64,000 nt of DNA from Pontibacter lucknowensis (lineage in GTDB: Bacteria > Bacteroidota > Bacteroidia > Cytophagales > Hymenobacteraceae): assembly GCF_900156415.1 (NCBI RefSeq), contig NZ_FTNM01000001.1, positions 186,001 to 250,000 on the forward strand, in the 5' to 3' direction. Below are positions 1 through 64,000 of this stretch, piece by piece (positions within the stretch are counted from its first letter, which is position 1; every line of letters begins with the position of its first letter). Under the pieces are notes generated by a model. That model searched no databases. It was not told the origin of the DNA and saw nothing but the letters and a program-made list of their open reading frames with translations. Made by a program: the position numbers and the translations under genes.

Positions 1-94
1 AAAATGGCAGGTGTAAACTGACTAGCCCGTCACTTTTACGTAAACGGTAGACCGGCTATACCTGTATCATCAAGAACTCAATCACCTGAAGTAT

Positions 95-349
95 ATGAAG
101 AACAAAGATAATTTTCACGAAAAGAAAAATGACAGCGGCCATCTGGGCGAGGACAAGGACAGAAATAAAGTAAGCAAGAACCTTGCTCCCAAAGGCACTG
201 ACCGTGAGTCAGAGAACACACCACCCGGTAATGAAGTTTATGTAGACCTGGAGCCAGACGAATTGCACCTGGCCGATGAGGAAGATGAAGTGGAAGACGT
301 GAGCGACCTGCGCAGCAAAGACAAGGATAAAGACAAAAAGAAAAAATAA
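95..349 (+). CDS. Small highly charged protein of unknown function
   Basis: An 84-residue, strongly hydrophilic protein with almost no aromatic or long hydrophobic stretches. A lysine/asparagine-rich front is followed by an acidic middle (about residues 50-70) and a C-terminal run of alternating Lys/Asp ending in several lysines. It has no signal peptide or membrane segment and is probably intrinsically disordered and cytoplasmic. I do not recognise a family. The ATG at 95 is preceded by a purine-rich stretch, and the gene ends directly at a long terminator hairpin, which argues for a real transcription unit. Confidence 0.6.
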   Translation: MKNKDNFHEKKNDSGHLGEDKDRNKVSKNLAPKGTDRESENTPPGNEVYVDLEPDELHLADEEDEVEDVSDLRSKDKDKDKKKK

Positions 350-388
350 ACAAGAAGCGCTGCCTGAAAGGGCAGCGCTTCTTGTTTA
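347..388. terminator. Bidirectional intrinsic terminator
   Basis: A perfect 14-bp stem (351-364 with 371-384, loop TGAAAG) extends through A/T pairs to about 18 bp and overlaps the stop codon of the upstream gene. It lies between two convergent genes and has A-rich and T-rich arms, so it can serve both. Confidence 0.85.
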
Positions 389-392
389 TACC

Positions 393-1712: not shown

Positions 1713-1897
1713 ACAGTTGTTTACGAAGTACAAGAGCAAAAAACAGGCCTCTTTTGATTATTTTATACCTAATTGAACAAAGCCAGCACACATAATGTTT
1801 GCTCCATAACCTTAGTCATCGTGCTGAGAGAGAAGATTTAATAATTACCTAACCTGTTTATTTCGAGCGGACTACTGTAAATGCGAAGGCTTTTTTA

Positions 1898-1906
1898 TAC
1901 CTTTGC
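1898..1906 (+). promoter_or_regulatory. -7 promoter element upstream of typA
   Basis: TACCTTTGC matches the Bacteroidota -7 consensus TAnnTTTGC exactly and ends 19 bases before the ATG at 1926. No convincing -33 TTTG is visible. Its position excludes the longer in-frame start at 1881 for typA. Confidence 0.6.
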
Positions 1907-1925
1907 ACCTCGAAAAATCAATTCA

Positions 1926-3737
1926 ATGCAAAATATTCGAAATATCGCGATTATCGCACACGTAGACCACGGCAAGACAACGCTCGTGGACAAAATCATC
2001 CACGCTTCAAAGCTATTTGCTGACCACCAGCACTTTGACGACCTCATTCTGGACAACAATGACCTGGAGCGCGAGCGCGGTATCACGATCGTTTCCAAGA
2101 ACGTATCGGTTCGTTACAAGGATGTTAAGATCAACATCATCGACACACCTGGTCACGCCGACTTCGGCGGTGAGGTAGAGCGTGTACTCAAGATGGCTGA
2201 CGGTGTACTCCTTTTGGTGGATGCCTTCGAAGGTGCCATGCCACAGACACGTTTCGTACTGGGCAAAGCGATTCAGCTTGGCCTGAAGCCGATCGTAGTA
2301 GTAAACAAAGTAGACAAAGAAAACTGCCGTCCTGATGAAGTGCACGAGCAAGTGTTCGACCTGATGTTCAACCTCGAGGCTACTGAAGACCAGTTGGACT
2401 TCACAACGCTTTACGGTTCTTCCAAGCAGGGCTGGATGAGTACTGACTGGACACAGCCAACTGATAACATCACGCCACTGCTGGATGCCATCATCGATGT
2501 GATCCCTCCTGCTCCTTACCGTGAAGGTACGCCGCAAATGCAGATCACTTCGCTTGACTACTCTTCTTTCGTGGGTCGTATCGCCATTGGTCGTGTGCAC
2601 CGTGGTACGTTGAAAGAAGGTATGCCAATCAGCTTGATGAAAGCCGACGGTTCAATTAAGAAAGGTCGTATCAAGGAGCTTCAGGTTTTTGAAGGTCTTG
2701 GCAGAAAGTCTGTACAGGAAGTAACTGCCGGCGAAATTTGCGCCATTACAGGTATAGAGGGCTTCGACATTGGCGATACGATTGCTGATGCTGAGAACCC
2801 TGAGGCTTTGGCCCGTATCTCGATTGACGAGCCAACCATGAACATGCTCTTCACGATCAACAACTCTCCTTTCTTTGGTAAAGAGGGTAAGTTCGTGACG
2901 TCGCGCCACCTGCGTGACCGCCTGTTCAAAGAAACTGAGAAAAACCTGGCCCTGCGCGTACAGGAAACCGACCGCGAAGATACCTTCCTGGTATTCGGTC
3001 GCGGTATCCTTCACTTGTCAGTACTGATCGAAACGATGCGTCGTGAAGGTTACGAACTGCAGGTTGGTCAGCCACAGGTTATCTATAAAGAAATTGACGG
3101 CCAGCGCCACGAGCCAATTGAGCACCTGGTAGTAGACGTTCCGGAAGAGACTGCCGGTAAGGTAATCGAGCTGGTATCGATGCGCAAAGGTGAACTGACG
3201 ATCATGGAGCCGAAGGGCGACCTGCAGCACCTGGAGTTCAATATTCCGGCGCGTGGTCTGATCGGTCTGCGTAACAACGTACTGACTGCCACTGCTGGTG
3301 AGGCGATCATGAACCACCGCTTCCTGGCGTACGAGCCTTACAAAGGCGCTATACCTGGCCGTAACAACGGTTCTATCATTTCGATGGAAACAGGCCCGGG
3401 TACAGCTTACTCTATCGACAAGCTGCAGGATCGTGGTGTGTTCTTCGTTGATCCGGGTGTAGATGTATACATGGGCCAGGTAATTGGTGAGCACAACCGC
3501 CAGAACGATATCACGGTGAACATCCAGAAGGGCAAGAAGCTGACAAACATGCGTGCTTCCGGTTCTGATGACAACACTAAGATCGCTCCGGCCAAGAACT
3601 TCTCACTGGAAGAAGCCATGGAATACATCCAGAAGGATGAGTACCTGGAAGTGACGCCAAAGAGCCTGCGTATGCGTAAGATCTACCTCGACGAGAACGA
3701 GCGTAACCGCATGGGCAAGAAAGAAGAAGTAGCGTAG
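1926..3737 (+). CDS. typA: Translational GTPase TypA/BipA
   Basis: A ribosome-binding GTPase of the elongation-factor family, involved in ribosome assembly and stress or cold adaptation. From Met at 1926 it is 603 residues, normal for the family. Visible motifs: P-loop AHVDHGKTT (residues 11-19), switch region [24 protein letters not shown] (G3) and [10 protein letters not shown] (G4). Later come the EF-G-like domains III and V ([20 protein letters not shown]) and the TypA-specific C-terminal domain. An in-frame start at 1881 would add 15 residues but lies upstream of the -7 promoter element, so 1926 is preferred. Codon use here is biased, as expected of a well-expressed gene. Confidence 0.97.
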
Positions 3738-9026: not shown

Positions 9027-9072
9027 CACAAAAAAAGGAGCCGGCTATACCTAGCCGGCTCCTTTTTTTGTG
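9027..9072. terminator. Long bidirectional terminator
   Basis: A perfect 20-bp stem (9027-9046 with 9053-9072) with A7/T7 arms separates the convergent genes at 7386 and 9342. Its 6-base loop and the adjoining stem bases contain TATACCT, a copy of the window-wide 7-mer. Confidence 0.9.
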
Positions 9073-24985: not shown

Positions 24986-25612
24986 CTATACCTTCTGCAA
25001 AAGGAGAGTCAGGATACGTGGTATACCTGTGCGGTCGCCGTCGTCAAAATATTCGTTCAGATCGATCAGCTTCAAGCCATGCTTTTTTGCGATCTGCGTA
25101 AACTCCGATATGTGGTGGGTATAGCATGCCACCTCCTGCCGCCCTTCATCTGTGTCGAAGCGGGCCCTGGTGCCGGTGTATTGCTTGAAAGGATGCAGTT
25201 CGCCGATGTAGACATAGCCTCCAGGCTTAAGGGCAGCTGCCGTTTGCTCGAAGATAAAATCCAGTTTTAAGATATGTTCCAGCACAAGGCTGAAAGTAAC
25301 AAGGTCGTATACCTGCGTGGCGAATTGCCAGGGCTGAGTGATATCGGCTTGTTGGAACACAACCTTGTTGGAGCTCACTTTCTTTCGGGCCCGTTCCAGC
25401 ATTTCAGAGGATAGATCCACTGCCGTAACGTGCATGGCCTTGCGCACCAGCCACTCCGTATTTTTGCCTGTGCCGCAGCCTATTTCAAGGCATGCCTCAA
25501 AGAGCACATCAGCCAGTGTAGCCCGTAAGCCCACGGCCTCCAGATCGCGGGTTCGGTTCTTGTTGGTGTCGTACTGCGCGGCCCAACTGTTGTAGGCTTG
25601 TTCTACGTTCAT
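24986..25612 (-). CDS. Class I SAM-dependent methyltransferase
   Basis: A 208-residue methyltransferase with motif I LEIGCGTGKNTEWL, acidic VTAVDLSSEML, and FSLVLEHI followed by LKPGGYVYIGE. It belongs to the Methyltransf_11/25 type; the substrate cannot be told. It overlaps the preceding GNAT gene by four bases (ATGA), so the two are translationally coupled. Confidence 0.88.
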   Translation of the reverse strand: MNVEQAYNSWAAQYDTNKNRTRDLEAVGLRATLADVLFEACLEIGCGTGKNTEWLVRKAMHVTAVDLSSEMLERARKKVSSNKVVFQQADITQPWQFATQVYDLVTFSLVLEHILKLDFIFEQTAAALKPGGYVYIGELHPFKQYTGTRARFDTDEGRQEVACYTHHISEFTQIAKKHGLKLIDLNEYFDDGDRTGIPRILTLLLQKV

Positions 25613-26091
25613 AGGTCTTTCAGCATCCAGATGTTGCAGGCGTAGTGGCCCGAGTTACCCAAGGCATGTGCGATGGGCCTGAAGCCTGCTTTCTCATACA
25701 TAGATACGGCTTTGGCCAGTTCGGGGAAAGATTCCAGGTATAGCTGGGTATAGCCAAGCTCCCGTGCGGCTGCTATACTTTGCTGCATGAGTCGGTTACC
25801 AATGCCCTTCCCTCTGGCTTCGGCGGCGAGGTAAAACTTCACCAGCTCGGCACAGCCCGCTGGCAGGCCCTCGGTAGGGTATACGCCGCAGCCACCGATG
25901 ATGACGCCATTTTCTTCTGCCACAAAGTAGGCGCTGCCGGGTTGCTGAAACAGTTCGTACAAGGCGTCGGTGGTCGGGTCAGTATACACCGTGCCGGGCT
26001 TGTCGATCTTAAACTCACGGAAAACCTTTCGGATCAAAGTGGCCAGCAGCGCATTGTTGGATGGCTGAATGGGGCGAATAGTAAGGGACAT
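25609..26091 (-). CDS. GNAT-family N-acetyltransferase
   Basis: A 160-residue GCN5-type acetyltransferase with AELVKFYLAAEARGKGIGNRLMQ, containing the acetyl-CoA loop RGKGIG, and the C-terminal YEKAGFRPI motif. The substrate is unknown. It lies between the TRIC channel gene (8 bases) and a methyltransferase gene (4-base overlap). Confidence 0.9.
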   Translation of the reverse strand: MSLTIRPIQPSNNALLATLIRKVFREFKIDKPGTVYTDPTTDALYELFQQPGSAYFVAEENGVIIGGCGVYPTEGLPAGCAELVKFYLAAEARGKGIGNRLMQQSIAAARELGYTQLYLESFPELAKAVSMYEKAGFRPIAHALGNSGHYACNIWMLKDL

Positions 26092-38261: not shown

Positions 38262-38264
38262 GAA

Positions 38265-38555
38265 ATGAACCTACACGCCTTCAAAGCCAGCTTATCCGCT
38301 CTCGCCCCACCTTCGGAGGTATCGGTATACCTGCAGGCGCTGTGGTATGAGGCGAAGGGTGATTGGGACAAGGCGCATGTTTTGATCCAGGACCTGCCAG
38401 ACAAAACTGCTGCCTGGATTCATGCTTACCTGCACCGCAAAGAGGGCGACACCTGGAATGCAGACTATTGGTATAGCCGGGCTGGTCGTAAAAGGCCCAA
38501 CACCTCCCTTCAGGAAGAATGGGAAAGTATCGTCTCCGACTTGCTTCAGGTATAA
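38265..38555 (+). CDS. Small conserved hypothetical protein
   Basis: A 96-residue soluble protein: LQALWYEAKGDWDKAHVLIQDL and WIHAYLHRKEGDTWNADYWYSRAGRK look like one and a half TPR-like helical hairpins. I recognise this as a widespread small protein of unknown role. Probably cotranscribed with the CPBP protease; ends at a very strong terminator. Confidence 0.75.
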   Translation: MNLHAFKASLSALAPPSEVSVYLQALWYEAKGDWDKAHVLIQDLPDKTAAWIHAYLHRKEGDTWNADYWYSRAGRKRPNTSLQEEWESIVSDLLQV

Positions 38556-38588
38556 ATTCCTTTTCTCTTTAAGACCGAGATTATTCAC

Positions 38589-38650
38589 TAGATAATAGAA
38601 AAAAGGCAGCAGCGGTACCAGTACCGCTGCTGCCTTTTTTCTATTATCTA
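38589..38650. terminator. Very long bidirectional terminator hairpin
   Basis: A perfect inverted repeat of about 30 bp (38589-38618 with 38621-38650) with A6/T6 tracts inside the arms and GGTACC-like apex, between convergent genes. It is unusually long for a simple terminator. Confidence 0.88.
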
Positions 38651-38665
38651 ACTCCAAAACACTCT

Positions 38666-38677
38666 AACTCCTAAACT
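38666..38677 (-). repeat. AGTTTAGGAGTT 3'-end repeat, copy 2
   Basis: On the minus strand the 12-mer begins three bases after the stop of the AAA+ gene (38680). Confidence 0.8.
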
Positions 38678-38679
38678 TC

Positions 38680-40200
38680 TTAAAAGTCATCTTCGTCTTC
38701 TTCCTCACCGAAGCTCGGCATAGTGAACATGCCACTAAGCAGGTCCTTGAACTGCAGGCCGGTGCTGAGGCGGTTTTTGCTGAGTTGACTGTGCTCTGCT
38801 AAACCATGCAGGGCAAATTCCATCATGAATAGCTTCTCTTCTCCTTTTGCTTCTGAGCGGTGCTTTTCTACCAGTTCGCTCAGGCCAGGTATAGCCTGCA
38901 AAGCTTTCTTGTATTCCGAGGCAGGCGCATCATTCAGGATATCCACTGTGTTGCCGTCACCAAACCAATCGGTTATTTTCTTGTACGGATTTCCTTCCTT
39001 TGACTTCTTAGCCTTGTCGGGGTCGGGAAAGTATTGGAGGAACTGCGTGCGGATAGCTTTGCCCATAAGCACCTGCGCTACATGCCCTGCGCCTTCCTGC
39101 TCGCCTTCGTATACCAGCTCTACTTTGCCCGTTACGGCAGGTATGGTGTTCAGGAAGTCTGACAAGCGCACATAGGTTTTGCTTTCGCCGTTCAGCAAGG
39201 CCCGGCGCTCAGCAGCACTCAGCAAATTTTCAAAAGCCGATATCGTCAGACGAGCCGACACGCCACTCTTGGCATCGACGTACTCACTCTCGCGGGCCTC
39301 AAAGGCCACCTGCTCTATCAGGTCGCTGATGATGTCGTTGGTGGTCACCAGCTGTTCCTGCTCCTCTTTGATATGCGCTTCCTGCCGTGTGATCTTCTTA
39401 CCAATCTCGATGGACTTCGGATAGTGCGTGATTATCTGGGAGTCGATACGGTCTTTAAGCGGCGTCACAATGGAGCCACGGTTGGTGTAATCCTCAGGGT
39501 TGGCCGTGAACACAAACTGGATATCGAGCGGCAGACGTACTTTGAAACCACGTATCTGAATATCGCCCTCCTGCAGAATGTTGAACAAGGCCACCTGGAT
39601 GCGGGCCTGCAGATCGGGCAGTTCGTTGATGACAAAGATGCCGCGGTGAGACCGTGGAATCAACCCGAAATGAATCACCCGCTCATCAGAGTAAGGCAAC
39701 TTGAGCGTAGCAGCTTTGATAGGATCTGCATCACCGATCAGGTCAGCTACCGATACGTCGGGAGTGGCCAGCTTCTCGGTATACCTGTCAGAGCGGTGCA
39801 TCCAACTGATGGGCGTGTCATCGCCGTGCTCGTGCACCAGGTCTTTGGCAAAACGAGAGAGCGGTTGCAGCGGATCATCGTTTAGTTCGGCCCCCTGCAC
39901 TACAGGTATGTACTCGTCCAGCAAGTCTACCATCAGGCGGGCGATCCGGGTCTTGGCCTGCCCACGCAAGCCCAGCAGGTTAATGTGGTGCATCGACAGG
40001 ATAGCCCGTTGTAAATCCGGCAAAACAGTCTCTTCGTAGCCCCAGATACCTGGAAATACTTCCTCTTTGCGCTGCAGTTTGCGGATCAGGTTATGGCGCA
40101 GCTCCTTCTTTACGGTTTGCGGTTCGTACCCGGCGGCACGTAGCTGCCCGAGCGTTTTTATCTTAAGTAAGTTCTCTGCTGGTATGTCTTTGTATTGCAT
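38680..40200 (-). CDS. MoxR/chelatase-type AAA+ ATPase
   Basis: A 506-residue AAA+ protein of the magnesium-chelatase/MoxR clade. The Walker A is GLRGQAKT (77-84), with Ala where GK is usually preceded by Gly. Walker B reads GIFVINELPDL, with Asn192-Glu193 instead of Asp-Glu. A sensor region follows (FVFTANPEDYTNRGSIVTPLKDRID). The C-terminus is acidic (EEEDEDDF). It is the second gene of an operon with a vWA protein 56 bases upstream. Such pairs act as metal chelatases or protein remodelling machines; the target here is unknown. Confidence 0.85.
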   Translation of the reverse strand: MQYKDIPAENLLKIKTLGQLRAAGYEPQTVKKELRHNLIRKLQRKEEVFPGIWGYEETVLPDLQRAILSMHHINLLGLRGQAKTRIARLMVDLLDEYIPVVQGAELNDDPLQPLSRFAKDLVHEHGDDTPISWMHRSDRYTEKLATPDVSVADLIGDADPIKAATLKLPYSDERVIHFGLIPRSHRGIFVINELPDLQARIQVALFNILQEGDIQIRGFKVRLPLDIQFVFTANPEDYTNRGSIVTPLKDRIDSQIITHYPKSIEIGKKITRQEAHIKEEQEQLVTTNDIISDLIEQVAFEARESEYVDAKSGVSARLTISAFENLLSAAERRALLNGESKTYVRLSDFLNTIPAVTGKVELVYEGEQEGAGHVAQVLMGKAIRTQFLQYFPDPDKAKKSKEGNPYKKITDWFGDGNTVDILNDAPASEYKKALQAIPGLSELVEKHRSEAKGEEKLFMMEFALHGLAEHSQLSKNRLSTGLQFKDLLSGMFTMPSFGEEEDEDDF

Positions 40201-40256
40201 TCTTTTTTGGTTGAATGGCTGTTGAAATATTAACTGCTAAGATGAATCGTTATATG

Positions 40257-41357
40257 CTAAAAACTCTTCTTTCGGTTGCGGCCATAGTCCCGGAACACCA
40301 GGTGTCCTAAGCCTTTCAGCGAACTGTAGTAAGCCTGGCCATTATTTACTTTCGTAAACTCGTCTACGAACTGCTGCAGGTATGGGTCCGATGCGATCAT
40401 GAAGGTAGTGATCGGGATTTTGATGCGGCGGCATTGGGCGGCGAGGTTCAGCGTCTTGTTCACCACTTTGCGATCCAGGCCGAAACTGTTTTTGTAGTAA
40501 TGCACCCCTTCTTTCAGGCAGGTCGGTTTGCCGTCCGTGATCATGAAGATCTGCTTGTTCGGCGTCTTACGCTTACGCAGGATATCCATCGCCAACTCGA
40601 GCCCGGCCACGGTATTGGTATGGTACGGCCCCACTTCCAGGTAAGGCAAATCCTTGATCTCGATCTGCCAGGCGTCGTTGCCGAACACGATCACATCCAG
40701 CGTGTCTTTCGGGTACTTCTGCTTCACGAGTTCGGCAAGCGCCATGGCAACCTTCTTAGCTGGGGTAATGCGGTCCTCGCCATACAGGATCATGGAGTGC
40801 GAAATGTCGATCATCAGCACTGTGGACGATTGTGTTTTGTGCTCCGTCTCGGTAATCTCGAGGTCCTGCTCAGTCAGCCGAAAGTCAGAAAGGCCGTGGT
40901 TGATCTGGGCATTTCGGATCGAGTCCGTCATGGAAATCTGCTCCAGCGCATCGCCAAAGCGATACTCACGGCGGTCGGTGCTGGCTTCGTCGCCTATACC
41001 TGTCTGCGGTGTGGCATGGCTGCCTTTGCCACCTTTCTTCAACTTGCCAAAAATTTCCTCCAGCGCACTCTTACGAATGTTCTGCTCACTCTTGGCCGTC
41101 AATTTCAACACGCCCTCCTCTTGTGGGTTTTCGTCGATGTAGCCCTTCTTTTTGAGGTCCTCGATAAAGTCGCCAATGCCGTAATCATCGCCCGTCAGGC
41201 CGTACTGCTTATCCAACGAACTAAGCCACGACAGCGCCTCAGCCACATCGCCGGAAGTGATCATCACCAGCTGCAAAAAGATTTTGAGCAGCGACTCGAA
41301 GCCCTGCTTATCATCCTGCGGTGGTATATACTCTGCAAATCTATACCCTATACTCAT
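40257..41357 (-). CDS. vWA-domain partner of the AAA+ ATPase
   Basis: A 366-residue protein. The N-terminal 150 residues are helical and charged. The vWA domain then starts with an intact MIDAS: VLMIDISHSM (DxSxS at 184-188), a Thr in PYHTNTVAGLELA, and FMITDGKPT. It is predicted to bind a substrate or the AAA+ ring through the metal ion, as in chelatase D/CoxE-type proteins. No signal peptide, hence cytoplasmic. Confidence 0.87.
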   Translation of the reverse strand: MSIGYRFAEYIPPQDDKQGFESLLKIFLQLVMITSGDVAEALSWLSSLDKQYGLTGDDYGIGDFIEDLKKKGYIDENPQEEGVLKLTAKSEQNIRKSALEEIFGKLKKGGKGSHATPQTGIGDEASTDRREYRFGDALEQISMTDSIRNAQINHGLSDFRLTEQDLEITETEHKTQSSTVLMIDISHSMILYGEDRITPAKKVAMALAELVKQKYPKDTLDVIVFGNDAWQIEIKDLPYLEVGPYHTNTVAGLELAMDILRKRKTPNKQIFMITDGKPTCLKEGVHYYKNSFGLDRKVVNKTLNLAAQCRRIKIPITTFMIASDPYLQQFVDEFTKVNNGQAYYSSLKGLGHLVFRDYGRNRKKSF

Positions 41358-41513
41358 ATGCTCTCTCCTGATTTATACTCTAACAACGCTACGCAGCCGA
41401 ATGTTCTTGCACACCGGTTCTTATACGTACAATATCGCACAAGCACAGGTATGGTAACAATAAGCCCAATGCTGCAGTACCATATATACAGAAACTAACT
41501 AAACTTTATCACA

Positions 41514-41795
41514 ATGAAAGCAATATTCAACGATATCGTAATAGCGGAAAGCGAACGAACTGTTAAAGTAGGCGGCAACCATTATTTCCCATCAAATGAA
41601 GTAAACCACCAGTATCTGGAAGAAAGCAGAACGCACACTACGCAGGAAGGTATGGGCGAGGCATCCTTCTACCATGTGAAAGTAAATGGAGAGGTGAAGC
41701 TGGATGCAGCCTGGACTTACCCGAACCCCGAGAAGAAGGCAGAAGAAGTAAGAAGCTATATTGCCTTTACTGATGCGGTGGAACTGAAGGACTAA
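41514..41795 (+). CDS. DUF427 domain protein
   Basis: A 93-residue single-domain protein of the DUF427 family. It carries KAIFNDIVIAESERTVKVGGNHYFP, the YHVKVNGE strand and AAWTYPNPEKKAEEVRSYIAFT, typical of the small beta-rich fold. Biochemical role unknown. Monocistronic, closed by a strong terminator. Confidence 0.9.
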   Translation: MKAIFNDIVIAESERTVKVGGNHYFPSNEVNHQYLEESRTHTTQEGMGEASFYHVKVNGEVKLDAAWTYPNPEKKAEEVRSYIAFTDAVELKD

Positions 41796-41804
41796 CGAAA
41801 GTTA

Positions 41805-41854
41805 ATAAAAAGAGCGGGGCCTGTCAAAAAACTGACAGGCCCCGCTCTTTTTAT
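41805..41854. terminator. Bidirectional intrinsic terminator
   Basis: Perfect 22-bp stem (41805-41826 with 41833-41854), loop AAAAAC, with A5/T5 arms, between convergent genes. Confidence 0.92.
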
Positions 41855-41871
41855 AATTTTATCACACCGGA

Positions 41872-42849
41872 TTAATCGATCCAGCGGAACTTATATTCCA
41901 GTTGTGGCGATCTCATACGCTCAGCTACTCTGCGCAGACGATCTGGCAAGGCAATCAGATAATCGCGGGCACGCTCGCCTGCGTCGTTCAGACCAGTCAC
42001 TGTTTCAAGCTTCCACTCTTTCACGAGGTCTTTCAGAATATCGGTATAGTCAAGCGCCGTGTATACATTGATGCGCTGGGCGGCATCGGTAAAGTGTCCA
42101 AAGGTCTTGCCCATGTCCACACCCAGTTCACGCATGTAGTGTGCAGGCATTACAATCTTCTTGCGCATCATGTCTTCAAAGGCCAGCATCATCTCGTTCG
42201 GATCGGCCTCAAATATTTTGCCTACAAAAGCCTTGTACGCTTTGGCGTGACGGGCCTCGTCAGAAGCAACATAGCCGCAAAGCTTTGCCAGCATGCCATC
42301 GCCCTGTTTCTTGGCAATCTGGGCTACGCGGCGGTGCGACAGGTTGGTTGCTGTTTCCTGGAATGAGGTATAGACAAAAGCACGGTAAGGGTCATTGTCT
42401 GTCTGAAGGTCAAAACCATCGGCGATCAGGTACTGCGTGGAGGCCTCCATTTCACGCATGTTGATGCGACCGGTCAGGTAGAGGTACTTATTCAGCAGGT
42501 CACCGTGACGGTTTTCCTCAGCAGTCCAGGCGCGGTTCCACTTCATCCAGGGGCTATCCTCGTTGCTTGGCACATCCTTGATAGACATCAGCCAGCTTTC
42601 GTAAGTTGGCAGCGCTTCTTCCGTGATGGTATCTCCTACCAGCACGGCCAGCAGGTCATAACTCAGGTCACGGGCACGCTCCTGCAGGTTTTTAATTTCT
42701 TCAAAGAAATTTTCCATACGGGCGTCAGGCAGCAAGTCAGCGGGCTGCCAGCTGTCTTCAACAGACTTGAGAAACTCTGTCATCTTTTCCTGGACAAAGT
42801 CTTCCATCCATTTCATGACTTCTACACGGGAGGCAATGGCTGTAATCAT
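41872..42849 (-). CDS. Acyl-ACP desaturase
   Basis: A soluble di-iron stearoyl-ACP delta-9-type desaturase of 325 residues. Iron ligands are in TAEENRHGDLL (ENRH) and ASDEARHAKAY (DEARH), with additional Glu residues at their usual positions. It introduces a double bond into acyl-ACP for membrane unsaturation. The gene has a -7 element 25 bases upstream and appears monocistronic. Confidence 0.94.
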   Translation of the reverse strand: MITAIASRVEVMKWMEDFVQEKMTEFLKSVEDSWQPADLLPDARMENFFEEIKNLQERARDLSYDLLAVLVGDTITEEALPTYESWLMSIKDVPSNEDSPWMKWNRAWTAEENRHGDLLNKYLYLTGRINMREMEASTQYLIADGFDLQTDNDPYRAFVYTSFQETATNLSHRRVAQIAKKQGDGMLAKLCGYVASDEARHAKAYKAFVGKIFEADPNEMMLAFEDMMRKKIVMPAHYMRELGVDMGKTFGHFTDAAQRINVYTALDYTDILKDLVKEWKLETVTGLNDAGERARDYLIALPDRLRRVAERMRSPQLEYKFRWID

Positions 42850-42874
42850 GGTGTTGTTTTAGGCGATTGAATTT

Positions 42875-42882
42875 CAAATATA
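42875..42882 (-). promoter_or_regulatory. -7 promoter element of the desaturase gene
   Basis: Reads TATATTTG on the minus strand, 25 bases before the ATG at 42849. Confidence 0.55.
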
Positions 42883-43100
42883 GGCATTTATACTAAAATA
42901 GTAATCCGCAGCGTCATATTAAGTTCATGCACTGCTAAAAAAGGAAATCGGACTCGGAAGCGTGTTTAGACTCTAACCTGCCAGCTCTTCATTTGCACAA
43001 ACCACAAAACACGCCTGGGATAATTAATACTTACGTAGAAAGACAAAACGGTTTTCATTTTCACCCCCAATATGTAGTAAGTCCCTGACAGAGTGCAATT

Positions 43101-44078
43101 TCAGCGATTTAAAAGCTTCTGATACAGCGCTCTGATGAAGCGAAGGTCTACTTTAAGTTTACTAAGGAAATGAATGGTGTGATAAACCGGTCCTAGTCCG
43201 GCATGCTGCCGCAGGAGGTCCAAAAACTGCTCCGCCTGCCGGTAGTGACCGGTCAGGTAAGCATGGCGTGCCTCATACTGCAGGCGGCGGCTCAGTGCCT
43301 GACGCTCTTCAGAATTTTGAACCAGTTTAGCCGCTTTCTCGCAGACAAGCACGGTAGAGTTCAGCTGCCTGTCACCCGGCTTATACAATTGCTTCGAAAG
43401 CGAATGGGCGTGCAAGCGGCGCCTCGTTGTGATGGCATCCAGAAAGAAGTACTTATACCTGCGGGAAGAGCGCACCCAGAAATCAAAGTCCTCGTAGGCC
43501 AGCGCTTCGTCATAGCCCTGCAGGTCTTCAAATACCTGCCGCTTCATCATCATGGTAGGCGGACAGATAAAATAGCGGCTCAGCAGGTGCTCAAAGATGT
43601 CGCCGGACGGTACGAAGGAAACTACCTCACCAGCCTTGTTGCGCTGGCAGTGAAACTTAACATGCCTGCCATTGTCGTCAATATACTCTGCATCCGAGTA
43701 AACAACCCCATAACTATCGTCCAGCTTTTCGAATGCCGCCACCTGCTGCGCCACCCGCTCGGGCAGTAGCACATCGTCGGTGGCAAAGTCGATGATGTAG
43801 TCGCCTTTGGAGGCCCGCCAGGCCATGTTGAAGGCCCTCGTGTTGCCCAGATTCGTACCGGTGCTCATGAAAGTGAGCTGCGGATATTGCCGGACATATT
43901 CCTGGATGATGGCCACACTGTTGTCGGTGCTGCAATCGTTCATGATGATGATCTCCAGGTTGGGGTAGGTCTGGGCCAGCACTGAGTCCAGCGCCTCGGC
44001 AATGAAGCGCTCGTGGTTGTAGCACAGGCAGATGACCGATACCAGCGGCAGTGAAGAAGCATCAGTCATGGCGCTCAA
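43101..44078 (-). CDS. Family 2 glycosyltransferase
   Basis: A 325-residue GT-A enzyme with LVSVICLCYNHERFIAEALDS at the N-terminus, the nucleotide motif MNDCSTDNS (46-54) and DFATDDVLLPE, whose DD pair (101-102) is the metal site. FDFWVRSSRRY lies later. The C-terminal helical part has no membrane anchor. It overlaps the upstream aminotransferase gene by 17 bases and likely transfers the amino sugar made by the two upstream gene products. A start at 44069 is also possible. Confidence 0.9.
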   Translation of the reverse strand: MSAMTDASSLPLVSVICLCYNHERFIAEALDSVLAQTYPNLEIIIMNDCSTDNSVAIIQEYVRQYPQLTFMSTGTNLGNTRAFNMAWRASKGDYIIDFATDDVLLPERVAQQVAAFEKLDDSYGVVYSDAEYIDDNGRHVKFHCQRNKAGEVVSFVPSGDIFEHLLSRYFICPPTMMMKRQVFEDLQGYDEALAYEDFDFWVRSSRRYKYFFLDAITTRRRLHAHSLSKQLYKPGDRQLNSTVLVCEKAAKLVQNSEERQALSRRLQYEARHAYLTGHYRQAEQFLDLLRQHAGLGPVYHTIHFLSKLKVDLRFIRALYQKLLNR

Positions 44079-45183
44079 AGAAAGTGTGTATAGACGTGAT
44101 AACTGCTTCCTGCTCCGCCTCCGTCATACCGGGAAAAAGCGGCAGACTCAGGCTTGTTGCGGCCAGTTCTTCAGCCACCGGAAAGCTTCCTTTGCTATAC
44201 CCCAGCCAGGTATAGGCCTCCTGCAAATGCACGGGAACCGGGTAATGTATGGCCGTCTGTATACCTTGCGCAGACAGGTATAGCTGCAAAGCATCGCGCT
44301 GCCTGGTGCAGATGTTGAAGATGTGGTAAACGTGCGTACAGCCCGGCGCTGTGACAGGCAGCACCAGGTCGCCTATACCTTGCAAGGCCGTCAGGTATAC
44401 CTGCGCCAGTCGTTGCCGCTCGCTGTTCAGTGCATCGAGGTGGTGCAGCTTGGTGCGCAGCACGGCCGCCTGCAGTGTGTCGAGGCGGGAGTTGACACCT
44501 ATGATTTGGTTGTGGTATTTCTGTTGCTGTCCGTAGTTGCGGTACATGCGGGCATAGGCTGCCAGCTCAGGATCAGAAGTAACTACTGCCCCACCGTCAC
44601 CCAACGCTCCCAGGTTTTTGGTGGGATAAAAACTGGTGGCACTGACACGGCCGAAGCTACCGACCGGACGGCCTTTGTAGCTTGCGCCCTGTGCCTGGGC
44701 AAAGTCTTCGATCAGGACCAGGTGGTGTTGTTCGGCTAACTCCAAAAACCCCGTCATCTCGCAGGCTTGCCCATACAGGTGCACAGGTATAATGGCTTTG
44801 GTGCGGGGTGTTATGTGAGTAGCGGCCACAGCAGCAGTCAGGTTGCAGGTATGGCGGTCGGGTTCGGCCAGCACAGGTATAGCGCCTACCCACACTACGG
44901 CATTCACAGTTGCAATGAAGGTGTTAGCCGGCACAATCACTTCGTCGCCTGCGCCTATACCTGCCGCTTTCAGAGCCACCACCAAAGCATCGTAGCCATT
45001 GCCCACGCCGATGGTCATACCTGCCTGCACGTACTTCGCAAACTCACCCTCGAATTGCTCCACCGCTTCGCCCAAAATGTACTGCTGAGCACGTAAGGCA
45101 CCCAACAGCGCCTCCTCCACCTGCTGGTTTATACCTGCAGGGTAGTCACGGAAGACGAAGTATGGGACCTGGGTTGTAGACAT
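44062..45183 (-). CDS. DegT/DnrJ/EryC1-family sugar aminotransferase
   Basis: A PLP enzyme of 373 residues that aminates nucleotide-linked keto sugars. It shows GVGNGYDALVVALKAAGI, the EDFAQAQGASYKGRPVGSFG segment, the PLP lysine Lys189 in SFYPTKNLGALGDGGA, and YRNYGQQQKYHN...NSRLDTLQAAVL. Given the FdtA-type isomerase 11 bases upstream, the likely product is a dTDP-3-amino-3,6-dideoxyhexose (FdtB-like). The gene is dense in AGGTATA 7-mers. Confidence 0.92.
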   Translation of the reverse strand: MSTTQVPYFVFRDYPAGINQQVEEALLGALRAQQYILGEAVEQFEGEFAKYVQAGMTIGVGNGYDALVVALKAAGIGAGDEVIVPANTFIATVNAVVWVGAIPVLAEPDRHTCNLTAAVAATHITPRTKAIIPVHLYGQACEMTGFLELAEQHHLVLIEDFAQAQGASYKGRPVGSFGRVSATSFYPTKNLGALGDGGAVVTSDPELAAYARMYRNYGQQQKYHNQIIGVNSRLDTLQAAVLRTKLHHLDALNSERQRLAQVYLTALQGIGDLVLPVTAPGCTHVYHIFNICTRQRDALQLYLSAQGIQTAIHYPVPVHLQEAYTWLGYSKGSFPVAEELAATSLSLPLFPGMTEAEQEAVITSIHTFFERHD

Positions 45184-45194
45184 AGGTATAGCTT

Positions 45195-45608
45195 TTACAG
45201 GGCCAGGTGTGCGGCCAGGCGCTTAAACGTGGCGTAGTCGCGGATGTAGTCGGAATCTTCGAAATCGGTGGAAGTCAGGCAGACCGCTATGGTGCCCGGA
45301 GCAAAATGCAGGTCAGTCCAGCACATGGCCGGCAGGTACAGCCCTATTGCCGGATTGTCCAGTACGAAGGTCTCCTTACTGCGACCATTGTCTGTCTCAA
45401 CGGTAATGCTTCCCGTCACGGCTACCAGCACCTCTTCGGTGGCTTTGTTGGCATGCTGCCCGCGCAGCACACCTGCCGGAGTACCGTAAGTCCAGAACAC
45501 CCGTTTGATCTCAAAAGGTATGTTTTGAGCCAGCTGTGTAGAGGCTATAAAGCCTATCTCTTGGTTACCGGTTTCGGTTAAGTGGATCAGGTATGGCGTG
45601 GCAGACAA
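45195..45608 (-). CDS. FdtA/QdtA-type sugar 3,4-ketoisomerase (cupin)
   Basis: A 137-residue single cupin. PFEIKRVFWTYGTPAGVLRGQHANKATEEVLVAVTGSITVE and the tail DSDYIRDYATFKRL are the family signature; the His in RGQHANK is catalytic. The enzyme converts dTDP-4-keto-6-deoxyglucose to the 3-keto isomer for amination by the next gene. The dTDP-sugar genes rmlA and rmlB are not in the window and must be elsewhere. Confidence 0.9.
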   Translation of the reverse strand: MSATPYLIHLTETGNQEIGFIASTQLAQNIPFEIKRVFWTYGTPAGVLRGQHANKATEEVLVAVTGSITVETDNGRSKETFVLDNPAIGLYLPAMCWTDLHFAPGTIAVCLTSTDFEDSDYIRDYATFKRLAAHLAL

Positions 45609-45676
45609 ATGGAAAAATTTAGTGCAGCCACAAATTAAAACATTTTCGGTTAATGTGCCTATAAAAGGGGCATGGC

Positions 45677-45708
45677 TTGGCGCTTGCTGGCGCTTCTGTT
45701 ACTTTTGC
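45677..45708 (+). promoter_or_regulatory. Promoter of the EamA gene, with -33 and -7 elements
   Basis: TTGG at 45677-45680 and TACTTTTGC at 45700-45708 give a TTG, 20-base spacer, TAnnTTTGC arrangement, the best full Bacteroidota promoter in the window. It lies inside the longest open frame, so translation must start downstream, at 45746. Confidence 0.65.
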
Positions 45709-45745
45709 AAATCAGGTCCTGCTGCAGGCCCTTGATGCTATACCT

Positions 45746-46654
45746 ATGCTATACCTGATCCTGAGTGTGCTATCGGGCGTTTCGCTCGTGTTTATCTTCA
45801 AGCTTTACCAGCGCTTCAATGTACATACGTTTCAGGCCATCGTTGTCAATTACGTTGTCTGTATCCTGGTTGGGCTGGCCTTTCCGGGAGGTACTGATGT
45901 GCTGCAGGCGGGTGTGTTTCAGAAGCCCTGGGCGCTGCATGCGCTGGTGCTCGGTGCTATTTTTATCGGGGCTTTCTACCTGATTGCACTCTCTACCCAA
46001 AAAGTGGGCGTAACTGCTACCTCCGTGGCAGCTAAAATCTCGCTGGTCATTCCGGTGCTGTTTAGCCTGCTGGTACTGCAAAACAGCGTGAAGGAATATT
46101 CGGTGATCAACTACGTGGGCATGGGCCTGGCGCTGGTGGCGATTGTGCTTTCATCTGTACGCCCCGGCTCCGAGGGCGGAAAACCCACTGCTCGATTGCT
46201 CAGTTTCGCGCTGCCGTTCATCATTTTCCTGAGCAGTGGCTTTGCAGATTCGCTTATCAACTACGTAAACGAGTATCACCTCCAGGCCCATGAAGCCAGC
46301 CAGTTTACGATGCTGACCTTCACGGCCTCCGCCGTACTCGGTTTGGTGGTGCTGCTCTACCAACTTTTCACTGGCAGTACCTCATTCAGGGCTAAGAGCA
46401 TTTGGGCAGGTATAGCCTTGGGTGTGCCCAACTATTTCTCTATCTTTTTCCTGATCATGGCCCTCTCAGCCTTTGGCAACGATGGTGCTTTCCTCTACCC
46501 CGTCAATAACATGGGCATCATCATGGCGGGGGCACTGGGAGCTGTAATGATATTCGGGGAGCGGCTGAGTGCGATCAACCTCGTCGGTCTGTCACTGGCA
46601 GTGCTGGCCCTGGTGCTGCTTTCGTATCAGGAATTAGCCGCCAATCTGTTTTAA
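45746..46654 (+). CDS. EamA/DMT-family transporter
   Basis: A 302-residue membrane protein with about ten helices in two EamA repeats (LIALSTQKVGVTATSVAAKISLVIPVLFSL in the first half; LYPVNNMGIIMAGALGAVMIFGERLSAINLVG in the second). It is a drug/metabolite exporter of unknown substrate. The frame is open back to 45677, but that ATG overlaps the promoter. Followed after 3 bases by the YigZ gene. Confidence 0.9.
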   Translation: MLYLILSVLSGVSLVFIFKLYQRFNVHTFQAIVVNYVVCILVGLAFPGGTDVLQAGVFQKPWALHALVLGAIFIGAFYLIALSTQKVGVTATSVAAKISLVIPVLFSLLVLQNSVKEYSVINYVGMGLALVAIVLSSVRPGSEGGKPTARLLSFALPFIIFLSSGFADSLINYVNEYHLQAHEASQFTMLTFTASAVLGLVVLLYQLFTGSTSFRAKSIWAGIALGVPNYFSIFFLIMALSAFGNDGAFLYPVNNMGIIMAGALGAVMIFGERLSAINLVGLSLAVLALVLLSYQELAANLF

Positions 46655-59784: not shown

Positions 59785-59806
59785 AAATCTATACTATCCG
59801 TATGGC

Positions 59807-61387
59807 TTAGTACCCAGGGTTCTGCTGCGCAGCTAACACAGGGTTAGATGCTACTTCAGATACCGGAATTGGCCAAATGAAACGGAAGTCCTCGTAAGGA
59901 ATGAACGGTATCGTGGTAGCAGGCATCGTACCGCTTCCTGCATTGTATTGCGGGATGTGGTTTGAGGTAGAGGCTACCTTAGCAGGTATACCAGCCGGAC
60001 CGAACACACCTTCTTTTGCCAGACGGTGGATGTCTTTCCAGCGCATACCTTCCGCCACGAATTCAATACGACGTTCGTTCACGATTGCCTGTGTCAGGGC
60101 ATTGCCAGTCAGGCCAGTGTAAGTCTGGTCAGTTGAGCGGCCACGAACTGCGTTCAGAAGTGCAAGCGCTCTGTCATTGTTACCAAGTCTTGACTCAGCC
60201 TCTGCTACGTTCAGCAGCACCTCTGCATAACGGATGATTGGCGACCAGTCAGACTGTGTACCAGCATCTCTGTACTTTCTGCTAAAGATAGCACGTGCAG
60301 TCGTCGTTGTGATATCACGACGGTCGTCATCTGCTGGCCAGAATTCGGCGTTCCAGATAAGTGGGCTAATTGCTACCAGCGCACGACCTCCAGGAAGGGC
60401 ATTGTACATCTGACCCAATGAACCGTTCACACTGGCGTTATCATTAGCCGTGTTCATGAAAGAGAAGATCGACTCAGAGTTGCCAGAGTTGTTGGCCCAA
60501 GGACCATCAGCAGAAGCAGTCAAAGCGTAACCACCGATAGGGCTTGTGAAAGACTCAGTACCTGAGATCAGTTTGTTACCCTCTGTCACTACACCTTGCC
60601 AGTCACGCATGTGCAGTTTAACGCGAGACTTCATCGCAATAGCAGCACCTTTTGTAGCTCTTGAGATTTTACCTCCGGCTGCACGAGTTTCAGGCAGGTT
60701 AGTCTCAGCATAGTCAAGGTCCGCCAGGATGGCAGCATAACCATCTCTTACAGAGTCACGGCCCTGCTGTCTTGCTTCCTCAACACGAGCTGGTGTGTTC
60801 ACCGGAATTGTTCTGATCGGAACTCCAGGGTGAGAAGCATCAGCTGTGTGGTTGTAAGGACGAGCGAAGTGAATAAGTAGTTCGTGGTTAGAAAGTGCAC
60901 GCAGGAAGCGAGCCTCAGCGCTGTAGGCATTGCCTACTTCAGCTGTGATCAGACCATCTGCTACTGCTTTATCAACACCCTCAATCACAATGTTTGCCTT
61001 GTTGATTACTGAGTAAAGCGTTTCAAAGTGGTACACGTTGTTCGCAGAGGCCGCGTTGTAAGTAGAGCCGTACGTGATGGCGTAGAACGCCTCCAGGTTC
61101 AGCATGTCCTCACCACGGTTATCGCCTTGCTCTATGTGAGCCGCACCGAACGGATAGCCACGCACAGCGCCACCAGCATAGAAACCACTTTGAGCAGCGT
61201 CATACACACCGGCTACAGCCAACTCTACACGCTCAGGGGTTGTAAAGGCACTTGCTTCAGTCAGACGGTCAAATGGATCTAGCTCCACTACGTCTTTCTC
61301 GCACGAAGTCAGCATCAGGGAGAAGCACACCGCAGGGGCGAGCAACGCTAACTTCAGTTTATTTTTGATGAATGATCTATTTTTCAT
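59807..61387 (-). CDS. SusD/RagB-family nutrient-binding lipoprotein
   Basis: A 526-residue surface lipoprotein (lipobox MLTSC, Cys29) that caps the SusC transporter and binds its ligand. It has the SusD-like N-terminal helices (DPFDRLTEASAFTTPERVELAVAGVYDA), TPR-like core (AEARFLRALSNHELLIHFARPYN) and the C-terminal RagB motif ERRIEFVAEGMRWKDIHRL with IWPIPVSEVASNP. The substrate cannot be told: no glycosidase, protease or regulator gene is next to it in the window. It starts 18 bases after susC. Confidence 0.95.
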   Translation of the reverse strand: MKNRSFIKNKLKLALLAPAVCFSLMLTSCEKDVVELDPFDRLTEASAFTTPERVELAVAGVYDAAQSGFYAGGAVRGYPFGAAHIEQGDNRGEDMLNLEAFYAITYGSTYNAASANNVYHFETLYSVINKANIVIEGVDKAVADGLITAEVGNAYSAEARFLRALSNHELLIHFARPYNHTADASHPGVPIRTIPVNTPARVEEARQQGRDSVRDGYAAILADLDYAETNLPETRAAGGKISRATKGAAIAMKSRVKLHMRDWQGVVTEGNKLISGTESFTSPIGGYALTASADGPWANNSGNSESIFSFMNTANDNASVNGSLGQMYNALPGGRALVAISPLIWNAEFWPADDDRRDITTTTARAIFSRKYRDAGTQSDWSPIIRYAEVLLNVAEAESRLGNNDRALALLNAVRGRSTDQTYTGLTGNALTQAIVNERRIEFVAEGMRWKDIHRLAKEGVFGPAGIPAKVASTSNHIPQYNAGSGTMPATTIPFIPYEDFRFIWPIPVSEVASNPVLAAQQNPGY

Positions 61388-61405
61388 TTTAAGGGAATTA
61401 AGAAA

Positions 61406-64000
61406 TTAGAAGCCAAGATTTAAACCAACTGTGAACACACGCTGCTGTGGCTGACCGTTCCAGTCTACACCAAGGTTGTTGTTGTTCAGGTTAGTGTAAG
61501 TTTCTGGATCAAGACCTGTGTAATCAGAGATTACGAAAGCGTTCTGTACCTGAGCATAGATTCTCAGACGGTCAACGCTGATGCGCTCAGACAGTGCCTT
61601 AGGCAGTGTGTAACCCAATGACAGGTTGCTCACTTTCAGGAAGTCGCCGCTCTCAACGAAACGTGAAGAAGACTCACCGTTTGTGTTGATGAAGTTACCG
61701 TAGTTAGCACCAGCAGCCAGTCTTGGAGTCTGTCCGTCACCTGGGTTTTCAGGAGACTGCCATCTGCCAAGGATCTCACGACCGTTGTTCTCAAACGCCA
61801 TTGTCAAAAGGTCCTGACGCGTACGGTTCATGATCTTGTTGCCACCAGAGAAACGCAGGAATACGTTTGCATCGAAGTTGCCCAGTTTGAAGTTGTTATC
61901 AAAACCACCGAACCACTTAGGAAGTGTGTTGCCTAGGATCACTTTGTCAGCAGATGACAGAGAAGACTGTGCACCCAGTGCGCTTGGGTTAGCCGGGTCA
62001 TAACCGTAGTATACACCAGCAGAACCACCGTTGCCAGAGATGTTACCCTGTACCAGTGAGCCATCACCTTTGCGGTAGATTGGGTTACCGTTTGCAGTGT
62101 TCACACCTTCGTACTGGTAACCGTAGATAGAGTTGATAGACTCACCTTCGCGGTGGATCGTGTATTCGTACACGATGTCCTGACCGTCAACCAGTGACTT
62201 CACTTCGTTATTCTGTGTAGAGAAGTTGAAGTTAGAGTTCCAGCTGAAGTTAGACTTGTCGATTATTGTACCAGAGATACCAATTTCGATACCGTTGTTA
62301 TCAACGCGGCCGATGTTACGCGTGATATAGTTGTTAGGCACACCCAGTGATGGAGGAGTTGGAGCCTGAAGAACGATGTCAGAGTTGTTCTTCATCCAGT
62401 AAGCCAATTCAACATTCAGACGTCCGTCGAACAAGCCCAGGTCGATACCGAAGTCGGTGATCTTCTGTGCTTCCCAACGCAGGTCAGGGTTACCAGTGTT
62501 GCTGAAGGCAATACCGTTGAAAGTACCGTACTGAGCAGCACCGAATGAACCCAAATATGGATAGTTACCTTGGATACCGATGTTTCCTACTTCAGCAAAG
62601 CTACCACGCAGTCTCAGGTCAGAGATAACGCTAAGTGCAGAAGAGTTCTTGAAGAATTCTTCTTCAGAGATTCTCCAGGCAGCAGACACGCCAGGGAAGT
62701 AACCCCAACGGTTATCTTCTGATAGCTTAGAAAGACCGTCAGCACGCATAGAAGCACCGATATAGTACTTGCTGGCATAGTTATAGTTGAAACGGCCCAG
62801 GTAAGAGGCAAGACCATTCTCACCGATACCACCGAAGGCAAACTGGTTAGCAAATGCACCAGATACCAGGTTTTCGTTGAAGAAACGGTCAGAAAGACCA
62901 GTACCCTGTGCCTGGAAGAAGCTAGATCTTGTTTTGTTGTATTCCTGTACTAACGTCGCATCCAGGTTGTGCACCTCGTTGAATGACTTGTTATAGCTCA
63001 GGATGTTCTGCCAGTTCCATGACTTAAGTGGAGAGTAAGCCTGAGAAACGACACCGCCAGAACCCTGACCGTCACCATGACGTGGGTCGTTGAACAGGAA
63101 GTCGTCAACCAGTGTCAAGTCAGCACCAAGCTGTGTTCTGAAGCGCAGGTTGTCAATCAGTTTGAAATCCAGGAATACGTTACCCAGACCGCGGTAAGTA
63201 GTAGCTCTACGTACGTTGTTATCCAACACGAAACGGATGTTTGGAATACCGTTGGCGATGATACCAGCGTTCGGTCCGCGGCCAAGTGCTCTAGGCTCCT
63301 GGAAGTCGATGTTGTAACCAGTTGGGTGTTCCGGGTTAAATACCGGTACGTTAGGGTGCATACGGATTACACCGAAGATGTTACCAGACAGGTTGTTAGA
63401 GCCAGTAAGCGGACCAGAGTTGATCTGATTGGTCAAACCGGCCTGTAAACCGAAATCAAGGAAGCTGGTTACTTTCGTCTGCAGGTTTGTGCGAACTGAA
63501 TAACGCTCCAGGCTGTTCGCACGTCCGATACCTTCCTGGTTTGAGTAACCAAGTGAGAAGTAGTAGTTTGTTTTGTCAGTACCACCGCTTGCAGAGAATG
63601 CATGGCTGTGCTGGAAAGCTCTACGGAATACTTCCTCGTTCCAGTCAGTGTCGGCATCACCCAGCGCAGCTGGAGAAGTCTGACCAAGGTTTGCATATTT
63701 CTCGTTTGTGATTTCAACGAACTCACGTGCGTTCAGCAGGTCATGCAGTTCGATTGCCTTGGCAGAACCTGCCCAGCCATCATAAGAGAACTTAGCCTGG
63801 CCTGACTTACCACGCTTGGTAGTAATAAGAATTACACCGTTAGAGGCACGTGAACCGTAAACCGCTGTAGCAGCACCATCCTTCAGGATCTCGAAAGACT
63901 CGATATCGTTCGGGTTGATGTCAGCAAGTGCGTTAGAAGGCGTAAATCCACCCAGGTTACCAGACGTAGCAGGTACACCATCGATTACGATAAGTGGCTG
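61406..64000 (-). CDS. SusC/RagA-family TonB-dependent transporter (5' end outside window)
   Basis: 864 residues are visible; the frame continues past the right edge, so signal peptide, CarboxypepD-like domain and the start of the plug are missing. The visible part begins in the plug: [44 protein letters not shown] (all SusC hallmarks). The 22-strand barrel follows and ends with [10 protein letters not shown], with the usual C-terminal Phe. It forms a TonB-powered importer with SusD downstream. It contains no AGGTATA 7-mer. Confidence 0.95.

Follow-up and report, generated by a model that had tools for sequence, protein, structure and literature searches.

A highly iterated heptamer, AGGTATA, in Pontibacter lucknowensis and its dialects among relatives: a candidate self-DNA tag

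Why a single 7-mer should recur every few hundred bases along a bacterial chromosome is the question raised by the stretch of Pontibacter lucknowensis DNA analysed here, a window of 64,000 nucleotides (positions 186,001 to 250,000 of contig NZ_FTNM01000001.1, or G000:C5:186001-250000, where G000 is the organism's own genome of 4.47 Mb). A first-pass annotation of this window had described AGGTATA (TATACCT on the other strand) as repeated far beyond chance, and had likened it to highly iterated signals such as the cyanobacterial highly iterated palindrome (HIP1) and the DNA uptake sequences (DUS). In our analysis, it is near certain that the word pattern in this genome is real, and we tentatively propose, at a level somewhat short of an even chance, that AGGTATA(G) and the corresponding dialects of sister species may constitute a genome-wide self-DNA tag, working in a manner analogous to DUS.

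By exact count, the window holds 110 copies of AGGTATA (57 on the forward and 53 on the reverse strand, one per ~580 b), for ~8 expected with equal bases. Over the whole genome the word occurs 3600 times on one strand and 3501 on the other (7,101 in total), versus 148 and 152 (300 in total) for the reversed word used as a control, which is a stronger excess than had first been stated. In a 464-kb sample (the window plus 400 kb of the same genome), AGGTATA is the top of all 16,384 7-mers, with 717 copies on both strands. Markov models predict 38 copies at order 1, 92 at order 2, 163 at order 3 and 568 at order 5; the excess is 19-fold at order 1 and 7.8-fold at order 2, where the overlapping CTATACC stands slightly higher (8.6-fold). 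Two results count against the observation, namely the excess of only 1.26-fold left by the order-5 model and a maximal-order model of the window only, which does not have AGGTATA among its 14 top 7-mers (its 6-mer list is led by ATACCT, with z of 3.8, and GGTATA, with z of 3.7). Since these models are trained on the motif's own 6-mers, we do not regard either as a suitable null; the order-5 comparison suggested by the first-pass annotation ends near expectation, and the low orders are strongly exceeded. The preference continues beyond the seven letters: the commonest extended 8-mer is AGGTATAG (395 copies in the 464 kb, for 9.8 expected at order 1), the base after AGGTATA being G in 395 cases, C in 161, A in 135 and T in 26, with 50% of the copies preceded by C and 8% by G.

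The copies are found irrespective of strand, reading frame and gene boundary, as had been proposed. There is no strand bias, either genome-wide or as a consistent skew over the 464 kb (the origin of replication was not located). Using gene calls made by a simple open reading frame (ORF) method, with no trained gene finder, 549 copies of the 464-kb sample are fully coding (1.39/kb) and 158 fully non-coding (2.30/kb), and the six gene-relative phases contain 30, 60, 163, 99, 93 and 104 copies, which excludes codon-pair usage in one frame as the source of the pattern. Codon pairs spelling the word exceed the codon-usage expectation by up to ~6-fold (GGT-ATA 217 vs 42; AGG-TAT 52 vs 9). Between genes, the density is highest in convergent, lower in co-directed and lowest in divergent intervals (3.61, 2.20 and 1.73 per kb), an order repeated for the corresponding words of the congeners G031 (12.6, 9.1 and 7.0 per kb) and G013 (9.3, 6.4 and 5.0 per kb). 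The suggested depletion in highly expressed genes was not borne out in typA, the sole such gene counted, whose 1.6 copies per kb compare with a coding mean of 1.39/kb.

The conservation of individual sites was followed in one 20-kb region around a LamB/YcsF gene (25382..46160, both strands, with 45 own sites), aligned to ten relatives of the same dialect (L029-L038, 78-90% identical). The LamB/YcsF protein has Pontibacter sp. FD36 as its best named relative. The own sites kept in each relative are 36/43, 27/40, 34/40, 31/40, 22/32, 29/41, 20/27, 31/41, 21/41 and 11/27 (41-85%), and phase-matched flanking 7-mers, in the same order, are kept in 44, 20, 23, 18, 25, 23, 29, 21, 14 and 9% of cases. 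The sites are therefore retained 1.9-4.6 times better than their phase-matched neighbours, in 10/10 relatives. Identity reaches 0.91-0.96 at word positions 2-7 and 0.85 at position 1, with 0.65-0.93 outside the word. In nine of the ten relatives the conservation of the flanking 7-mers falls below that of the background (0.20 vs 0.29 in L030, for instance; the exception is L035, with 0.29 vs 0.27), which means that the sites lie in permissive places and yet are themselves held. Loci without this dialect keep few of the own sites (0/8 in L040, 1/10 in L053 and 0/7 in L039). Where a site is not kept, the difference is a substitution: one-base-different states occur at all seven positions, both as transitions and as transversions, and a gap was found in 1/111 non-kept sites, compared with 2,079/110,866 changed background 7-mers. 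These observations speak against the mutational bias that had been offered as an alternative, and an origin by insertion or from mobile elements (similar to repetitive extragenic palindromic sequences) was rejected, given that the variation proceeds by substitution, including in a codon alignment.

The word belongs to a set of related words in the genus. AGGTATA itself reaches 2,866-4,796 copies per strand in 10/37 Pontibacter genomes (347-1,300 in the other 27), and outside the family it differs from its control by no more than a factor of two in 20 of 22 genomes of the order, the outliers being G053 (0.38 times its own control) and G052 (2.4 times). Samples of two further genomes gave 36 copies in 20 kb (G132) and, more weakly, 8 in 20 kb (G138). 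The L038 locus of P. roseus DSM 17521, a strain of the AGGTATA dialect, has 25+17 copies in 20.8 kb. AAGTATA is present at ≥2,000 copies per strand in 23/50 Pontibacter genomes and AACTATA in 7/50, three genomes (G027, G033 and G074) being high in both, and a dialect word attains 13,168 copies in a single genome (G031). Two additional dialects came from samples: ATATATA in G060 (162 in 120 kb vs 42 at order 2) and a GGTATA dialect in G142 (GGTATAA, 78 vs 15). Altogether, a dialect was assigned in 41/50 Pontibacter genomes. No clear word was found in samples of 27-160 kb from the remaining ones (G002, G007, G024, G025, G026, G028, G034, G140 and G151), apart from a weak excess in G002 and G007; in 140 kb of G026 there are 18 AGGTATA for 25 expected. 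The one-base neighbours of the five dialects have a common profile, in which position 7 tolerates A to G, position 8 is mostly non-T and positions 4-5 are nearly fixed; the dialect words share T4, A5, R7 and the avoidance of T at position 8. A midpoint-rooted tree built for a single gene of 30 genomes puts the 11 genomes with AGGTATA in one group and the four with AACTATA (alone or together with AAGTATA) in another, G002 standing beside the latter; the AAGTATA genomes are mixed with the other non-bearers.

How one dialect gives way to another was approached through the alignment of one gene from 30 genomes, in seven columns having at least four copies. Conversion in place was not seen as a rule, given that 6/7 columns hold a single word; column 1976, where 11 genomes have AAGTATA and a single one has AACTATA, is a possible in-place dialect switch. 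A conversion process would deplete its substrate, and the scarcest near-miss, AGGTCTAG, is indeed low (3 vs 11.3, the other near-misses standing at ~0.5 or more of expectation), but it is absent from the motif-free G026 sample too. Two candidate words were rejected as local tandem repeats: GAGGTAG in G028 (mostly of period 8) and ATAGTATAG in G013. The latter comes from a period-5 repeat that includes TATA words (L081:940-1050); this locus was excluded from the G013 statistics on neighbours, placement, inverted pairs and next base, and is included in the earlier G013 sample counts.

Another word is iterated elsewhere in the family. ACCTAGG occurs 27 times in 20 kb of G062 (genus g25), for 1.6 expected, and at 2,535-4,402 copies per strand in three of the eight g25 genomes (G062, G071 and G084) and in two of 66 genomes of g26 (G120 and G159), with controls of 1-66 and a maximum of 8,746 copies in one genome. 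Genus g26 is presumably Hymenobacter, which is a guess on our part. Two genomes are intermediate (G106, 321/345; G171, 224/244), and the other 143 of the 150 family genomes have at most 168 copies per strand. In the 20 kb of G062 the word is followed by G 16 times, A 6, C 5 and T 0; because T is avoided at position 8, as in Pontibacter, all these words fit the template NNNTAKRV, although the template is loose and the sharing could be partly due to chance. In the L039 locus of Hymenobacter fodinae we observed another dispersed word, CTAGGCCA (19 times in 20.8 kb vs 1.1 expected). TAGGCCA, a candidate for a word of wider distribution, is not strongly raised in the 150 family genomes (maximum 680/681 vs 115/112, in G159).

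The word is thus iterated, independent of strand and frame, organised in clade-linked dialects on a common template, variable by substitution and conserved in permissive places. Such a pattern needs a genome-wide sequence-specific reader, with positions 2-3 varying between clades and TA, R and V constant, and the profile of tolerated bases resembles a binding preference. We infer that one protein family reads the word, and that DNA uptake and recombination are the route by which the benefit or drive arises. Uptake or exchange of self DNA is favoured because DUS are the known systems giving this combination (PMC3630211, PMC2397512). In the proposed mechanism, the non-palindromic double-stranded word would be bound by a sequence-specific protein during DNA exchange between cells, most likely at the uptake step of natural transformation. 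DNA bearing the word would be preferentially taken up or recombined, and copies arising by chance substitution would then spread and persist, as with DUS. Were the preference of the reader to shift at positions 2-3 (and 6-7 between genera), the genome would slowly refill with the new dialect. A broader version of this proposal, which we consider possible and hold with clear reserve, is that the Hymenobacteraceae have a pilus-independent recognition of self DNA, with a reader of NNNTAKRV-type words whose specificity changes fast enough to yield at least five dialects in Pontibacter plus ACCTAGG in scattered members of two other genera, and a resulting barrier to exchange between species.

Several results weigh against this self-DNA tag. 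No reader emerged from the families searched in the 50 Pontibacter genomes (PF00437, PF03772, PF18942, PF01555, PF00145 and PF07669). PF00437, the motor family shared by type II secretion, Tad pili and type IV pili, has matches in 50/50, of which three pass the cut-off, with at most 66/370 positions covered, and the same search is positive in 14/14 control genomes; given this coverage, no match looks like a motor, which makes a type IV pilin reader unlikely, so that a ComP-type pilin is not expected. Across 30 loci inspected, the ORF hit by this search encodes 642-668 residues and reads by eye as a helicase, probably SMUBP2-like. The ComEC channel (PF03772) is present in 50/50 genomes, which agrees with an uptake tag, but it does not discriminate because it is found with or without a dialect. 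Moreover, its match has an in-frame stop in the high bearer G009 (G009:C76:160505-161305) and in the dialect-bearing G022 (G022:C1:2771217-2771876), which could be an assembly error or a recent loss. DUF5689 (PF18942), which is tied to transformation in Riemerella (PMC8459023), was rejected as a reader, being present in only 22/50 genomes, absent from the own genome and not tracking the dialects; in 8/11 loci its neighbours resemble, by eye, nutrient-uptake proteins. Regarding the copies themselves, their spacing is uneven and over-dispersed (coefficient of variation 1.33-1.37, which led us to reject even spacing), and in a count polarised with an outgroup 11/34 ancestral motifs were lost, versus 2,270/4,503 other 7-mers, with one gain; this is a weaker contrast, with a control biased towards conserved sites.

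Close inverted pairs acting as terminators are typical of DUS. Counting non-overlapping neighbours 3-30 b apart, we found 6 and 12 inverted pairs versus 11 and 12 direct ones in the 464 kb of the own genome, and an excess of inverted pairs is equally absent from the G031 and G013 samples, which also tells against the tag. Overlapping inverted pairs number 11 in the 464 kb of the own genome; in samples of 200 kb there are 69 in G031 and 6 in G013, which has the AAGTATA dialect. A palindromic 10-mer form is thus common in G031 (L246-L255, AACTATA dialect).

The literature adds evidence in both directions. Within the Bacteroidota, Riemerella transforms with ComEC, DprA, ComF and RecA plus four genes unlike known machinery (PMC8459023), and R. 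columbina prefers its own DNA (PMC7965970). Against the tag, the Riemerella k-mer table in the available part of that paper has A/T-rich words only and none like AGGTATA, and the matches listed in our literature search include no transformable Pontibacter. Nor do the matches listed describe such a word in Pontibacter, which does not establish its absence from print.

Among the alternatives, the one that survives best, although we judge it unlikely, is a drive similar to that of HIP1, in which a methyltransferase would mark the word and a mark-biased mismatch or other repair would create and protect the copies, with no need for a benefit. Precedent exists in most cyanobacteria, where HIP1 has an observed/expected ratio of 55-228 and is accompanied by methyltransferases specific for its inner sequences, with alternate HIPs turning up sporadically (PMC4390886); the scattered ACCTAGG genomes recall those sporadic HIPs. 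Likewise, the own genome has matches to PF01555 and of the Eco57I type, and a BREX-type locus with PglX. On the other hand, AGGTATA, AAGTATA, AACTATA and ACCTAGG are non-palindromes, and no methyltransferase family searched follows the dialects. PF01555 was rejected as a reader (31/50 genomes, but none of the four that have AACTATA only, nor the AGGTATA bearers G003 and G011), as was PF00145, which comprises C5 methylases (23/50, absent from the own genome); PF07669 has some match in 47/50 genomes, none in the bearers G022 and G142, and patchy strong matches, so that it does not give a clean result either.

A second alternative is that a housekeeping DNA-binding protein (for nucleoid structure, segregation or repair) needs dense sites, which selection keeps. 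The dense genome-wide spread, the conservation and the intergenic excess would agree with it, as would a recognition sequence with a constant and a variable half. Nevertheless, we find it quite unlikely, since a housekeeping signal should neither switch dialects within a genus nor go undetected in 9/50 congeners, and the copies show neither a replication-strand bias nor regular spacing.

An improbable explanation, in our view, is a signal similar to Chi, pausing AddAB or RecBCD and marking self DNA. Chi sites are short, non-palindromic, over-represented and species-specific words, properties that the clade-specific Pontibacter word has as well, and the latter is scarce in the low-GC genes of its own genome. 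Strand polarity, however, is absent (3600/3501), the over-representation exceeds that of known Chi, which are not A+T-rich, and such a signal would not normally be expected to change dialect within one genus. Finally, mutational bias, codon usage or dipeptide usage alone is disfavoured and very improbable: the order-5 model covers 568 of the 717 copies and some dialect-matching dipeptides are mildly raised (Tyr-Thr 1.29 here and 1.54 in G013, with 1.01 in the motif-free G026), but the enrichment in six phases and in intergenic DNA, the codon-pair excess, the strong site conservation with one-base differences at all seven positions and the existence of a congener without the word (G026) are all contrary to it.

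In the own genome, genes with <44% GC have 22 copies in 38.2 kb (0.58/kb) and those with ≥52% GC have 296 in 170.2 kb (1.74/kb), the reverse of what composition only would predict for an A+T-rich word. Under the self-DNA tag this would be expected if acquired DNA came without the word, low GC being only a proxy for acquisition; weighing against the tag, the scarcity is not seen in G031 (1.59-1.81/kb over the four bins above 1 kb), and G013 has few low-GC genes. A low-GC stretch outside the window with few AGGTATA (C5:386-436 kb) contains the BREX-type locus mentioned above (G000:C5:395622-409860, or L025:5622-19860), with PglZ, BrxHI, PglX, a RecD-like PDC-S68 protein and BrxC. Nineteen AGGTATA lie between L025:6113 and 15511, within this locus, and 12 in the other 40 kb of the stretch, as if the BREX genes had been long resident in genomes of this dialect.

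Inside the window, AGGTATA starts on the forward strand at 1421, 1688, 2750, 3736, 6847, 7051, 7514, 8209, 8665, 11032, 12425, 18810, 19078, 19192, 21021, 23147, 23382, 25736, 28280, 28469, 28587, 28859, 29446, 33622, 34078, 34190, 34782, 34854, 35638, 36122, 36529, 36829, 37238, 38548, 38887, 42366, 44208, 44276, 44393, 44785, 44875, 45184, 46408, 47224, 48087, 49114, 49965, 51273, 52878, 53945, 55093, 55491, 55849, 56220, 58411, 59680 and 59984. Its complement TATACCT starts at 57, 387, 716, 1764, 1896, 3350, 4491, 9046, 9674, 9959, 10151, 15068, 15365, 17222, 17363, 20549, 21192, 22619, 22681, 23065, 23115, 23150, 24595, 24987, 25022, 25308, 26819, 28142, 28361, 29314, 30611, 34827, 35093, 37022, 37361, 38326, 39780, 40995, 43454, 44260, 44374, 44396, 44956, 45130, 45739, 45750, 47395, 48070, 48405, 52503, 54261, 56593 and 58382.

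Two clusters stand out, both with copies on the two strands. The first (33622..37367) extends over genes matching the CT_C_D, CT_A_B, LamB/YcsF and Nramp families, its last copy being just 3' of the Nramp-like gene; the 14 copies announced by the first-pass annotation for 33,600-37,370 are exactly what we count (10+4). The second (44208..45190), inside and at the edge of a DegT/DnrJ/EryC1-type aminotransferase gene, is likewise real, with 11 copies (6+5) in 44,161-45,200 instead of the 10 reported. The typA/bipA gene (1881..3737, forward strand) has three complete copies, rather than two, at about the mean density. A reverse-strand copy at 9046..9052, described earlier as lying in a terminator loop at about 9045-9052, does span the loop of a perfect hairpin (fold of 9026-9075) with A7/T7 tracts in its stem, which is terminator-like and comes directly after the ORF 7386-9014. 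A cold region with a single copy runs from the SusD gene to the window end (59807..64000, reverse strand).

How, then, does the word compare with known systems? The likeness to highly iterated signals that was noted at the outset holds in its iteration, strand symmetry, frame independence, conservation at orthologous positions and clade dialects. If the self-DNA tag were true, such tags would have arisen again in the Bacteroidota with another reader; the uptake tags described in the available parts of the papers cited here belong to Neisseriaceae and Pasteurellaceae, and HIP1 to cyanobacteria. Additionally, dialect changes inside one genus would provide a natural experiment, in which comparisons could reveal the reader and the isolation of species by tags could be put to the test.

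With the DUS of Neisseriaceae the word shares thousands of copies and a division into clade-linked dialects around a fixed core. One genome may hold two dialects, as in S. muelleri there (PMC3630211) and in G033, G074 and G027 here, and five genomes of that family have no obvious DUS according to the accessible text of the same source, just as 9/50 Pontibacter have no clear word. Copies of DUS, too, are conserved to a high degree at permissive places of the core genome (PMC2397512). The differences are that DUS are 10-12 bp long and the Pontibacter word 7-8 bp, that no pilus motor was found here (50 genomes) and that there is no excess of inverted pairs (own genome, G031 and G013). The Pontibacter word is also denser, at average intervals of 330 b in G031 and 630 b in the own genome versus ~1.15 kb for the Neisseria DUS, although K. 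oralis comes close (5,918 in 2.4 Mb, one per ~405 b). Uptake signal sequences of Pasteurellaceae are similarly genome-wide words, existing in two slightly different versions (PMC1939737, in part), but they belong to another phylum, the Pontibacter word is shorter, and no pilus motor was found in the 50 Pontibacter genomes. Chi differs in that the Pontibacter word has no strand polarity, is A+T-rich and is far more over-represented. HIP1 and the alternate HIPs are, as here, highly iterated (8-mers) and give way to other words in certain relatives (PMC4390886), but they are palindromic with cognate methyltransferases, and the Pontibacter word is neither, as far as three methyltransferase families are concerned. 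Because it is not a palindrome and these three families do not track it, the word stands closer to DUS than to HIP1.

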